Below, piece by piece: positions 3,379 through 28,874 of a stretch of 64,000 bases of DNA; the stretch's first letter is position 1; each line of letters opens with the position of its first letter. The stretch comes from Verrucomicrobiales bacterium (lineage in GTDB: Bacteria > Verrucomicrobiota > Verrucomicrobiia > Verrucomicrobiales > DEV007). Where the stretch lies: contig JAEUHH010000014.1 in the NCBI GenBank assembly GCA_016795505.1, forward strand, positions 62,001-126,000. The letters are read 5' to 3'. The notes below the pieces were generated by a model. The model saw only the letters and a program-made list of their open reading frames with translations, made no database searches and was not told where the DNA came from. A program made the translations under genes and the position numbers.

Positions 3379-4224
3379 ATGCCGCTGAAACAATACAAGC
3401 CGATCACTCCGTCGAATCGCTACAAATTGCTGCCCGACTTTGCGGAGATCACCAAGGACTCGCCGGAAAAGAGCCTCACCGTCGCGCTGAAGAAGTCCGG
3501 CGGCCGCAACAACAACGGCCGGATCACCTGCCGGCACCGCGGGGGTGGTCACAAGCGGAAATACCGTCTCATCGACTTCAAGCGCACCCGTCGCGACGAG
3601 GCCGCGAAGGTCATCGCCATCGAGTACGATCCGAACCGCACCGCCCGCATCGCGCTCATCGAGTACGGCGACGGCCAGAAGAGCTACATCATCGCCCCCC
3701 GCGGTCTCGAAGTCGGAGCCGAGGTGGTCGCTGGTGAAAAGGCGCCGATCAAGCCCGGCAATGCCCTCCCGCTGTCCAAGGTTCCGACCGGTTCCGTCAT
3801 CCACAACGTCGAACTGATCCCCGGCCGCGGCGGCAAGGTCGCCCGGAGCGCCGGCCAGAGCTGCATCCTTTCCAACCGCGAAGGCGACTACGCGCTGATC
3901 AAGATGCCCTCCGGCGAGATCCGGAAAATCAATGTGCAGTGCTACGCCACCATCGGCGTGGTGGGCAACTCCGACCACATGAACGTTTCCAGCGCCAAGG
4001 CCGGCCGCACCCGCTGGCTCGGCGTGCGCCCGACCGTGCGCGGCATGTGTATGAACCCGGTCGACCACCCGAACGGCGGTGGTGAGGGCAAGTCCAAGTC
4101 CGGTGGTGGTCGCCAGCACCTGAAGAGCCCCTGGGGCCACGCGAAGGGCCAGAAGACCCGCCAGAAGTTCAAGTCCACCAACAAGTTCATCGTGCAGCGC
4201 CGCAACGCCAAGAAGCGTGGCTGA
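3379..4224 (+). CDS. rplB: Ribosomal protein L2
   Basis: 281-residue large-subunit protein near the peptidyl-transferase centre. Contains [21 protein letters not shown] near residue 40 and the C-terminal block [20 protein letters not shown] with the conserved histidine important for activity in other bacteria. Normal length; ATG 3379 chosen because the frame upstream has no better start. Followed by rpsS after 57 bp. Confidence 0.97.
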
Positions 4225-24282: not shown

Positions 24283-25731
24283 ATGAACCGGCTCATCTTG
24301 GCTTGCTCCCTCCTCACCAGTCTCGTCTTCGCGCTCCCCCTCCGGGCGCAGACCTTCACCAATGGGCAGGACGCCATCGGCGTCATCGGGCAGCGCGATT
24401 TCCTGTCCATCCTGCCCTCAAACCTGTCCAACCGGCTCAATGCCCCGCGCGGCGTCGCCTACGATGCCGTCTACGGCAAGATCTACATCGCCGACAGCGC
24501 CAACCACCGCGTGCTTCGCTACCCCGTCCAGGCGCTCCTGCAGCCCGGCACCATGCCCGAGTGCGTCCTCGGCCAGGCGAATTTCACCGATGCCCTGGCC
24601 AATCAGGGACTCGCCGCTCCCACTGCCCGGACCCTGAACTTCCCCCGCAGCGTCCTCGTCGATTCCGAGGGCCGCCTCTGGGTCGCCGACGGGAACAACA
24701 ACCGCATCCTCCGGTTCGACAACGCCGCCTTTCTCGGAAACGACGCGCCGGCCAGCGCCGTGCTGGGGCAGGGCAGCTTTACCACCGCCACGGCCAGTGT
24801 ATCGGCGACGACCCTGAATGGCCCTCACGGACTCTGCATCGATGCCAACGATGCCCTCTGGGTCGCGGATCGCTTCAACAACCGCGTGCTCCGTTACAAC
24901 GCCGTTTCCAGTAAGGCCAACGGGGCGGCTGCCGACCTCGTCATTGGTCAGACAAACTTCACCAATGGCGCCATCGGTGTCGCAGCGAACCGGCTCAGTA
25001 GTCCCGTAGGCATCTGCCTCGATGCGGCCGGCAATCTCTGGGTCGCCGATAGCGACAATAACCGCGTCCTGCGATTCGATGGCGCCACCGGCATGACCAC
25101 CCACGGCGCTGCCGCCAGCCTCGTTCTCGGCCAGCCGGACTTCACCTCCAATGGTGTCAACCGCGGGGGGACGCGGGCGGCCAATACCCTGAGCCTGTGT
25201 CTCGGGGTCTTCGTCGATGCCGCCGGGAGCCTGTGGGTGGCCGATTCCTTTAATCGCCGCGTGCTCCGCTATTCCAGTGCCTCGACCCTGACCAATGGTG
25301 CCGCTGCCGATCTCGTGCTCGGGCAGGAAAACTTCATCGACAACGACCTCACCGCGCGAGCCGACCGGACCCAGACCCCCATCCACATCACCTCAGGGCC
25401 CGATGGCAGCCTGCTGGTCACCGATTTCTCCTACCACCGCGTCCTCCGCTTCGGCCCCATCAATGTCGCGCCCACCATCACTCTGACCGGTCCCGCCACC
25501 CGCACCACCACCCAGTCGACCATCGCCCTGCGGGGCACGGCCACCGACCCCGGCGGCGCCGTCGCCTCCATCCGCGCCACTGTGAACAACCGGCCCACCC
25601 ACGTCTCGGGCACCGGCTTCTGGTCCCTGCGCGTCCTCCTCAGAAAGGGCGTCAATGTCATCAAGCTGCGCAGCGTCGATCACTTCGGCCTGTCGTCCGG
25701 TGTCGTCACCGTCACCGTCATCCGGCGGTAG
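24283..25731 (+). CDS. Exported NHL-repeat propeller with Ig-like C-terminal domain
   Basis: 482 residues from ATG 24283 with a clear signal peptide (MNRLILACSLLTSLVFALPL, cleavage near LRAQ). At least five repeats of about 60 residues carry the NHL pattern: a LGQ...F motif, then P-x-G-x-x-x-D, then LWVADxxNNRVLRF (for example LWVADGNNNRILRFD and LWVADSDNNRVLRFD). The last 85 residues form an Ig-like beta domain (TITLTGPATRTTTQSTIALR). Probably a secreted or surface binding protein. The gene ends 4 bp before the left 46-bp direct repeat of the AT-rich island. Confidence 0.85.
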   Translation: MNRLILACSLLTSLVFALPLRAQTFTNGQDAIGVIGQRDFLSILPSNLSNRLNAPRGVAYDAVYGKIYIADSANHRVLRYPVQALLQPGTMPECVLGQANFTDALANQGLAAPTARTLNFPRSVLVDSEGRLWVADGNNNRILRFDNAAFLGNDAPASAVLGQGSFTTATASVSATTLNGPHGLCIDANDALWVADRFNNRVLRYNAVSSKANGAAADLVIGQTNFTNGAIGVAANRLSSPVGICLDAAGNLWVADSDNNRVLRFDGATGMTTHGAAASLVLGQPDFTSNGVNRGGTRAANTLSLCLGVFVDAAGSLWVADSFNRRVLRYSSASTLTNGAAADLVLGQENFIDNDLTARADRTQTPIHITSGPDGSLLVTDFSYHRVLRFGPINVAPTITLTGPATRTTTQSTIALRGTATDPGGAVASIRATVNNRPTHVSGTGFWSLRVLLRKGVNVIKLRSVDHFGLSSGVVTVTVIRR

Positions 25732-25734
25732 GGC

Positions 25735-25780
25735 CCTCCCCTACACCAGCGCCGCCAGCAGCTCATTGACCTTGTCGATC
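25735..25780. repeat. Left 46-bp direct repeat flanking the AT-rich island
   Basis: Begins CCTCCCCTACACCAGCGCCG and is identical over 46 bp to 27816-27861. On the minus strand it encodes the last codons and stop of the collagen-like gene, so this copy is a detached duplicate of that gene's 3' end. Sequence on the right becomes AT-rich immediately after position 25780. Confidence 0.9.
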
Positions 25781-25920
25781 TCTTCCTTCCCAAATTGCAC
25801 TCAAAATCCACGAAGTCTTTTCAATGTTGCTCTCCCTTTGACGAACCGAGTTCCTTCGGGAAGCCTTCGAAAACCCACCCGTGGCTTCTATTAATATCGT
25901 GAACCCTAATCAGCACCAAA

Positions 25921-27180
25921 ATGAAATCGAACGCACCGAGTAACTTTTTGCTTCAACATCGTTGTCGAAACCTCTGGAATGCCGTTGTTATTCAATTTTG
26001 GAAGCTGAACCGATTAATATTGCCGAAACTGAAAAGTTTTAACCTAAATGAGTGCCTTTTAGGTATCGCGCTTCTGGGGCTTTATAGTTGTTCAGAACCC
26101 GAAAAGTTGGAAAGGCATCAGGGTGAGAAAAGCGAAATTAAAACGAAATCTATAGATTCTTCAATCAATCTTGATCCGAATCTCGAAAGGAAAGAAGATG
26201 CAAATTCCGATGAAATTGTAAATCAATTTGTGAACAGTGCGATTAAAAGGGACTTTGGGGCGCTTATCGCGATGGATCAGGAATTCGTCAAATCTGTTTC
26301 AGAATCAGTCCCAATGCTGCCGAAATCACTTCAAAAAGAGAAGTTTGACTCAATGCTTAATGAGCGGGTGGTAGCCCTTGAGGGGATTCAAAATCAAAAC
26401 GATCTAGGCAATAGCGTTTTGGGGCTGTTCTTTGAGGGTGTAAAATGGGAGGTGATTGAGAAAAGAGGTGATGTTTGGAATTCCACACCGGTTACTACAT
26501 ACTTCGTCAAGGTCGTGTACCCGGATCCAAAGCGGTCTCCAGTTGTGGGAGTTGGGAGGACAGTAATGGGCGAAGACTATGCTAAGCTTATTTCATTTGC
26601 TTCGCCACAAATGGGACTTTTAAAAAGCGCAATTTGTGAATTGACGTTCACGAATTCGAACACGGTGAAAATTTTGGTAAAAAACAGAATCGTTCCGGCT
26701 GGTTTGGAATATTGGAAGGAGCCAGTGATTTTAAGCACGAGGGTTGAATTTAGTGAGTATTCGAATCTGGGAAAGTTTGATTTGAAATTTTGGGTAAGTG
26801 TGCTAAATCTAAAAGATTTTCGGGAGTCTTCAATTGTTCTAAAGGGAAGCGGAGGAGATTGGACGGGAAAATTATTGATTGCTAGGAGCATTCTGGGTGA
26901 GAATCCAAACATTTTAGAGTGTAGAATTCAATACGCTACACAGCGTTACGGTAAATGGCCGATTCAATCCCTACCAGATGAGGTCCTAATTAATATAAAT
27001 TCAGATGACGGCTCTGATTCTGTGAGGTTTAAGTTGAAGGAAAACTTAAAGTTAACGCAACAAGGAAGTCCGATTGCCATGAATTTCTGCTCCGAATTCC
27101 GAGTTTATCAAAGACAGGCTCCTTCGGTTTTCTTCACATTGTCATGGCATGCCCGAGATTTTAATTACTTTTCGCCTTGA
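25921..27180 (+). CDS. Putative lipoprotein of unknown function in the AT-rich island
   Basis: 419 residues from ATG 25921. A hydrophobic stretch CLLGIALLGLYSC ends in a lipobox-like cysteine near residue 57, so the true start may be an internal TTG near 26020 giving a shorter signal. The mature part starts with a charged linker, followed by a helical region (DEIVNQFVNSAIKRDFGALI) like small NTF2-like or DUF-type folds, then beta-rich sequence. No catalytic motif recognised. Base composition is far from that of the neighbours, implying recent transfer. Confidence 0.75.
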   Translation: MKSNAPSNFLLQHRCRNLWNAVVIQFWKLNRLILPKLKSFNLNECLLGIALLGLYSCSEPEKLERHQGEKSEIKTKSIDSSINLDPNLERKEDANSDEIVNQFVNSAIKRDFGALIAMDQEFVKSVSESVPMLPKSLQKEKFDSMLNERVVALEGIQNQNDLGNSVLGLFFEGVKWEVIEKRGDVWNSTPVTTYFVKVVYPDPKRSPVVGVGRTVMGEDYAKLISFASPQMGLLKSAICELTFTNSNTVKILVKNRIVPAGLEYWKEPVILSTRVEFSEYSNLGKFDLKFWVSVLNLKDFRESSIVLKGSGGDWTGKLLIARSILGENPNILECRIQYATQRYGKWPIQSLPDEVLININSDDGSDSVRFKLKENLKLTQQGSPIAMNFCSEFRVYQRQAPSVFFTLSWHARDFNYFSP

Positions 27181-27259
27181 GTTGTTAAGCGAAAGAGGGG
27201 GTGAACACTTGTTGTCACGGCTTTAGGTTCCAATAGAAAAACGGTAACTATTAAATATC

Positions 27260-27685
27260 ATGAAAACGTTTCTCAAATTTCGACGAAATTCGCGCAGGGT
27301 AGTAGGTGTGCCTCGCATTAAAGTTCCAAGTTTAGGTATTGTATTAGTATTGTTTTTTCAGGGGGTGGTCTTTTCGTCCGAGTTTATCTGGATCGACTTT
27401 TTAGATGTGATTGCGGCAAAGGATACTCTGATGATCAAGATCAGTAGGCGTGGGTCAAATTTGGCTATGAAGGTGACACTGGGGCATGGCCTTTCGGCGC
27501 GGACTATAGGAATTGTTTATGATGAGCCTGTAGAAGGTGTTAATGTTGAAAAGCTTAATGTTGCAATCGAGCAGCTAATAAAGAATTTAAATGAGTCCGA
27601 TGTAGTGAAGCTATCGCTAAAAGATTTTTCTAGTGAGATTGGTCTGAGACCTCTTGAATTAGTTCGGCCTGATACCTTGGAATGA
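27260..27685 (+). CDS. Small exported protein of unknown function in the AT-rich island
   Basis: 141 residues with a basic N-terminus (KFRRNSRRVVGVPRIK) and a hydrophobic core SLGIVLVLFFQGVVFSSEF, a signal peptide or membrane anchor. The remainder, about 100 residues, alternates strands and a helix (NVEKLNVAIEQLIKNLNESD) and is unrecognised. Starts 79 bp after the lipoprotein gene in the same direction, so the two may be cotranscribed. AT-rich like its partner. Confidence 0.7.
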   Translation: MKTFLKFRRNSRRVVGVPRIKVPSLGIVLVLFFQGVVFSSEFIWIDFLDVIAAKDTLMIKISRRGSNLAMKVTLGHGLSARTIGIVYDEPVEGVNVEKLNVAIEQLIKNLNESDVVKLSLKDFSSEIGLRPLELVRPDTLE

Positions 27686-27815
27686 TTTTTTTCGGCTTTT
27701 CGAAAATCGTCCAGTTGGATATAATCCGATTTCCTAAATAGGAGTTGTGTAGAGTGGATTCTAGTGTTTCGAGAGTTCCAATTGTTGGTGTTGAATTTGG
27801 AGTTTCCGGTTTATT

Positions 27816-27861
27816 CCTCCCCTACACCAGCGCCGCCAGCAGCTCATTGACCTTGTCGATC
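27816..27861. repeat. Right 46-bp direct repeat flanking the AT-rich island
   Basis: Identical to 25735-25780. It contains the stop codon (minus-strand TAG at 27824-27822) and last codons (ending in AALV) of the collagen-like gene, which continues intact to the right. Confidence 0.9.
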
Positions 27862-28331
27862 ACGCCCTGCACCTCGCTCTGGCTGGGCGGATCGCTGGCG
27901 GCGTAGGGGATCGGCGCGACGGAGACCGGACGACGGGCCGCCGTGTCGAGCGCGGCGGCCAACTGCGCCAGACTCACCTCGCCGGGCGGTCCTTGCGGCC
28001 CCTCGGGGCCGGCGGGGCCCGTCTGACCGGGATCTCCCGCCGGACCGGCCGGGCCGGGCGGTCCCATCGGCCCCGAGCCGCCGGGAGGACCTTCCGGACC
28101 GGTCGCACCGGTCGGTCCGAGCCCGCCGGGCTCCCCGCGGGGGATCTGGAACGTGAAATGCAGCGTCTGACCCGTCAGCGTGACCGATGCCTGGGCCGCC
28201 TGTCCGGGATCGAGCGTGGTCACGCCGTCCACCTGGGCAGCGAGGAGCGCTTGCGATCGCTTTTGCGGTCCCGACGGAGGCGTCCGAAAGGCTTGTGGAC
28301 GCCTTTGCAGGCACGACGGAGGCGCCATCAA
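27822..28331 (-). CDS. Collagen-like Gly-X-Y repeat protein, possibly 5'-frameshifted
   Basis: 169 residues if started at ATG 28331. The centre is a collagen-like run of Gly-X-Y triplets ([20 protein letters not shown] and onwards, about 23 triplets), preceded by a beta segment [18 protein letters not shown] and followed by a helical tail ([17 protein letters not shown]). The first 33 residues ([20 protein letters not shown]...) look unlike a natural N-terminus, whereas another minus frame from ATG 28545 to about 28250 encodes 14-residue heptad-like repeats; a single frameshift near 28230-28262 would join both. Surface or appendage protein likely. Its last 14 codons and stop are duplicated at 25741-25780. 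Confidence 0.65.
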
Positions 28332-28633: not shown

Positions 28634-28699
28634 ACAGGGATGTCGTCCGGTCTCCAATGAGACTCTGTCCGATCGCCGATGGTACCCTGTCTGATCGGC
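28634..28699 (-). repeat. Tandem 22-bp palindromic repeats (two clear, one degenerate)
   Basis: On the minus strand the units are 28699-28678 (GATCAGACAGGGTACCATC after GCC), 28677-28656 (GATCGGACAGAGTCTCATT after GGC) and a decayed 28655-28634. They lie in the intergenic space 89 bp before ATG 28545 of the collagen-like locus and 175 bp before the divergent secreted-protein gene at 28875. Confidence 0.7.
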
Positions 28700-28874
28700 A
28701 AAGAGTGGCGTCTATAGGGGCTTCCCTAAGCGGCTCGCTTCTCTGGATTGGCGGGCTGTCGAGAGGGGCGAATTTCCTTCATCGCGCGCTTACAAAAAAT
28801 TTGACGGTCGCCCCCAATTTTCACAATATGCGTCCACGACAACCTGCGTTGTCGCTGAACCGAACCGAAAATCC

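Follow-up and report, generated by a model that had tools for sequence, protein, structure and literature searches.

An AT-rich insert of 2,035 bp (25781-27815, 41% GC), carrying two orphan genes and lying between perfect 46-bp direct repeats, is the only low-GC segment of the window, the 64,000-nucleotide stretch of DNA analyzed here (63% GC). The reading of this island as a real insertion of foreign DNA that duplicated the end of a resident gene is well supported. The island is unusual for its region and explainable by known processes; its sequence, together with other inserts of the same genome, points to ordinary homology-driven insertion rather than to a new kind of mobile element. We consider insertion-duplication by a single crossover to be the best explanation, with about an even chance of being correct.

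An AT-rich insert flanked by a duplicated gene end

The two repeat copies occupy 25735-25780 and 27816-27861, with a spacing of 2,081 bp, and are perfectly identical, reproducing both the coordinates and the identity given in the original prediction. They form the only non-tandem direct repeat of this kind in the 64-kb window, where about 1e-16 such pairs would be expected by chance, and the similarity between their flanks stops at the 46-bp limits, with none further out. The sharp switch in base composition claimed for the inner repeat edges was also recovered, GC passing from ~0.67 to ~0.40 inside the repeats and to 0.74 outside. Furthermore, the GC3 of the two island genes is 0.41 and 0.39, compared with 0.78-0.91 in neighbouring genes. 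No second copy of the insert was found in the 2.24 Mb of its own genome that were surveyed.

The right copy comprises the last 12 codons of a collagen-like gene, its stop codon, and 6 bp, while the left copy begins 3 bp past the stop codon of an NHL-repeat gene and is a stranded duplicate of the same collagen-like 3′ end, as had been proposed in both cases. The two copies contain an identical stop codon, the gene has not gained a new C-terminal tip by fusion, and in the stranded left copy a TGA lies in frame a few codons upstream. The shared stop codon and this TGA led us to reject C-terminal displacement of the rhs type. Deletion of the 2,081 bp in silico leaves 9 bp between the stop codon of the NHL gene and that of the collagen-like gene. 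The predicted restoration of two convergent genes about 10 bp apart upon excision thus holds for the spacing, while the gene so restored may be a mere fragment, since the collagen-like open reading frame (ORF) is 5′-truncated relative to its paralogues. When the 46-bp sequence was searched for elsewhere, as the original prediction had suggested, only two copies were found in the 6.55-Mb genome, both at the island edges, and the genome contig collection gave no exact match, a search that diverged sites would escape.

An assembly artefact appears very improbable. Such an error would have joined an AT-rich contaminant at a common 46 bp or resolved a 2,081-bp circle as an insert, and the assembly is indeed a draft of 120 contigs; however, two false junctions would be required, each at the very same 46 bp. 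Two contig-end pairs share exactly 141 bp, which suggests that the assembly was made at k=141. With overlaps of this length at contig ends, a 46-bp repeat should not create a branching point and is therefore an unlikely source of misassembly.

Two orphan genes as cargo

The island has a clear boundary and contains two intact orphan genes, unrelated to each other and both on the plus strand. Gene 1 (25921-27180, GC3 0.41) encodes 419 amino acids and gene 2 (27260-27685) encodes 141 amino acids. Neither protein could be assigned to a family in Pfam, NCBIfam, PHROGs, or PADLOC. No homologue of gene 1 was found in 388 genomes of the phylum, GTDB contigs, IMG/VR, phages, plasmids, or PDB sequences, and 75 genomes of the family yielded no relative, the one match at E=0.004 being weak; the weak matches to gene 1 were rejected as homologues, being either unrelated or too weak. 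Gene 2 likewise had no homologue in 387 genomes of the order, in phages, or in IMG/VR. Its matches were at chance level only (E>0.003), and those inspected were unrelated.

Signals for export were read by eye and are plausible in both proteins. Gene 2 has a probable signal peptide, and in gene 1 an in-frame TTG at 26020 may serve as an alternative start that would give a lipoprotein-like signal (MPKLKSFNLNECLLGIALLGLYSC). That both genes encode proteins exported to the envelope is a guess made from these sequences. The description of the cargo as two unknown exported proteins is thus sustained as to the lack of families and relatives, while its export part comes from signal sequences judged by eye. 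Structure predictions for the two proteins (pLDDT of 37 and 35) were too poor to use, and promoter and terminator signals were at chance level.

Flanking genes and the corresponding locus in relatives

The left neighbour of the island is an intact NHL-repeat gene (24283-25731, plus strand; PF01436, E 4e-36). On the right, the gene whose 3′ end was duplicated (27822-28331, minus strand) belongs to a tail-fibre/collagen repeat family and is 5′-truncated relative to its paralogues, to which it can be aligned only from about residue 31 onward. Six fuller paralogues in the genome share a conserved N-terminus, M[ASP][YF]DPxxP...QL..L..LI, which the collagen-like ORF lacks, and the target gene may accordingly be a fragment. 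Given the absence of this N-terminus, we make no claim that the insertion preserved a working gene. Another C-terminus of the collagen family without the family N-terminus was noted on contig C31 (L035, ~3407-3571), where it follows a short peptide repeated in tandem. The window also contains, at 28641-28703, an intergenic repeat of about 50-60 bp (..GTCTGATCGG..), for which BLAST gave over 20 genomic matches.

Related genomes were then searched for the empty site, as had been suggested, and none was found. The closest NHL orthologue (59%, genome G016) has another downstream neighbour, and no usable match to the island locus was obtained at the DNA level in the same genus. Because the NHL/collagen-like gene order is not kept in the closest genomes, the locus is not syntenic there and no empty site could be recovered; we therefore infer the mechanism from the locus itself and from its counterparts elsewhere in the genome.

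Absence of mobile element hallmarks

The claim that no integrase is present proved correct. Neither an integrase nor a remnant of one was found in the island by ORF inspection or family searches, and none lies near it. The island likewise contained no transposase family and no Rfam match. Its terminal inverted repeats scored at chance (p=0.28), no recombinase-core dyad was scored in the 46-bp repeat, and arm-type repeats, sought as 9-mers around the reconstructed circular junction, were at chance level. A transposon or insertion sequence was rejected given the missing transposase, the lack of terminal inverted repeats above chance, and a duplication of 46 bp rather than a short one. The genome encodes at least four tyrosine recombinases, one of them on the island's own contig at a distance of ~123 kb and none adjoining the island, and these could act on it in trans.

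Integrative elements are bounded by att repeats of 8-60 bp at gene 3′ ends, and CIMEs keep attL and attR while losing the integrase (PMC5704250). The 46-bp repeat falls within this range and includes a gene end (the last 12 codons and the stop), a position typical for CIME-like elements. A tyrosine-recombinase element could thus have entered the collagen-like 3′ end and left the 46 bp as attL and attR, its integrase having been lost or, as the recombinases of this genome would permit, supplied in trans. We regard this as possible but doubtful: the island has no integrase remnant, the repeat has neither a dyad core nor arm repeats, and the target, a lineage-specific gene truncated at its 5′ end, is not one of the conserved housekeeping genes. 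Moreover, the 46-mer is absent elsewhere, exact-match searches revealed no integrase-bearing relative using the same site, and the other bracketed inserts in the genome have no site in common. The strategy of site-specific elements implied by the original prediction is not well supported in view of the same observations, namely, the lack of a nearby recombinase, dyad core, arm repeats, or further copies of the 46-mer, the unrelated repeats of the other inserts, and the truncated state of the gene that excision would restore.

Other bracketed inserts in the same genome

We surveyed 2.24 Mb (34% of the genome) for low-copy direct repeats lying on both sides of an insert, and found four more small accessory-module inserts flanked by copies of local sequence. 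These four loci were picked by inspection. Locus C52 (L107, 18092-19399) carries a VapC-type toxin and a NikA-like/DUF6290 ribbon-helix-helix partner between perfect repeats of 55 bp (68 bp at 98.5%), which reproduce, on either side of the insert, the terminal 55 bp of a Dabb gene with its stop codon. Locus C58 (L113, 7932-9228) holds a RelB/ParE-type pair within a repeat of 353 bp at 94% that takes in the 3′-terminal part of a DUF4838 gene as well as the trailer behind it. The two remaining loci lie in sulfatase genes, assigned by eye. C66 (L120, 965-2858) is bracketed by 49 bp of perfect repeat (62 bp at 94%) from a sulfatase start region and carries a Tle1-like gene (T6SS phospholipase family), a YgjP-like peptidase gene, and an antitoxin-like gene judged by eye to be ribbon-helix-helix-like. 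C63 (L039, 15623-18340) carries a DUF262-like gene, an assignment made by eye and without a match in NCBIfam, between repeats of 144 bp at 98% taken from the 5′ coding region of a sulfatase gene; this locus may involve two tandem sulfatase genes.

The repeats of the four loci have nothing in common: their sequences, their lengths (49 to 353 bp), and their positions relative to genes all differ. Such diversity speaks against a single att-site-specific system. At C58, 9 of the 13 differences between the copies fall at third codon positions, and 8 of the 12 changed codons are synonymous. Such mainly synonymous divergence would be expected of an imported copy that had diverged as a functional gene in another place, rather than of a duplication made on site.

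The C58 copies also bear on long target duplication, in which foreign linear DNA would have entered through a staggered break or through template switching during replication, with fill-in duplicating the 46 bp. This course of events would need no donor homology and agrees with the perfect identity of the island repeats, the lack of any similarity past them, and the perfect cores at C52 (55 bp) and C66 (49 bp). It nevertheless seems unlikely, since in-place duplication does not predict a long imperfect repeat with mainly synonymous divergence such as that of C58. In addition, ordinary transposon target duplications are far shorter than the tens of base pairs seen here, and a Ku gene was looked for and not found, which makes end joining of the Ku type improbable.

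The other bracketed loci may differ in their mechanism: at C52 the neighbouring gene of relatives has moved, and C63 may involve the tandem sulfatase genes mentioned above. The search for a clean C52 empty site failed because the hydrolase gene that follows Dabb in relatives sits on contig C28 in this genome. In its broadest form, the lineage would have a recurrent, integrase-free route that installs small accessory modules (toxin-antitoxin pairs, defence-like genes, and orphan exported proteins), copies 46-350 bp of the target, and leaves the gene whole when insertion occurs at a gene end, a joint reading that we hold to be quite improbable. If the five bracketed inserts do share a mechanism, paired local repeats would be a simple signature for integrase-free gene uptake, and the duplicated gene end would explain why such inserts are tolerated. 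The recurrence seen in the surveyed third of the genome is a more interesting lead than the island itself.

The survey also returned rhs-like loci and multi-copy intergenic repeats. The rhs-like loci (C9, C10, and C36; L067, L068, and L093) have AT-rich segments between duplicated core ends, and a palindromic relative of the intergenic repeat at 28641-28703 flanks a C52 repeat copy. Two long near-identical blocks lie ~2.6 kb apart at C93 (L146, 3624-6909). The 4,680-bp contig C46 (L103, 1-4680) has the same 50 bp at both ends, and 141 bp of its end recur at an end of C92.

Proposed insertion-duplication and comparison with known systems

In the favoured mechanism of insertion-duplication, the AT-rich genes would have been acquired horizontally, without an integrase of their own, on a circular or circularised donor molecule carrying them beside a short copy of the collagen-like 3′ end. 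A single crossover with the chromosomal copy, either RecA-type or RecA-independent, would then leave the cargo between two copies of the common 46 bp. Such an event accounts for a direct repeat of host sequence that brackets cargo devoid of an element recombinase, and for a repeat length and target that vary between events (49 to 353 bp at the four other loci), assuming that these arose in the same way. Insertion-duplication is preferred, at roughly even confidence, because of these variable repeats, the divergence at C58, and the precedents in E. coli and at rhs loci described below. Several points weigh against it. With a lower limit reported at ~30 bp in E. coli (PMC2884548), a 46-bp stretch offers RecA little homology for efficient recombination, and the donor would have to possess GC-rich collagen-gene DNA already beside its AT-rich cargo. 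Neither a circle, nor an empty site, nor a donor with both cargo and gene end was found: no collection searched contained a cargo homologue, and the locus is not syntenic in relatives. The other bracketed loci, as noted, may have arisen in different ways.

The island resembles CIMEs and decayed integrative and mobilizable elements (PMC5704250) in having a repeat of 8-60 bp that holds a gene 3′ end and in lacking an integrase, but it differs from them by the absence of an att-like core, arm sites, and a related element, and by its atypical target gene. With rhs tip displacement, for which circular intermediates have been proposed (PMC2935791), it shares a GC-rich gene whose duplicated ends enclose AT-rich cargo; unlike that system, both of its copies terminate at an identical stop codon, no tip is fused, and the cargo is no recognisable toxin-immunity pair. 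Homology-facilitated illegitimate recombination, proposed for type VI effector arrays (PMC5361080), similarly uses one-sided homology to anchor foreign DNA and leaves displaced 3′ ends in place, although it is usually coupled to a deletion (PMC3240628), whereas the island shows a clean duplication. Finally, incoming linear DNA in E. coli can circularise and integrate by a single crossover, an event that leaves 109-950 bp of the homologous locus in duplicate (PMC3240628). Those repeats are longer and come from an engineered system, while the island has 46 bp at a natural locus and a donor and circle that we infer; in both cases, cargo without an integrase lies within a direct repeat of the host locus whose length varies.
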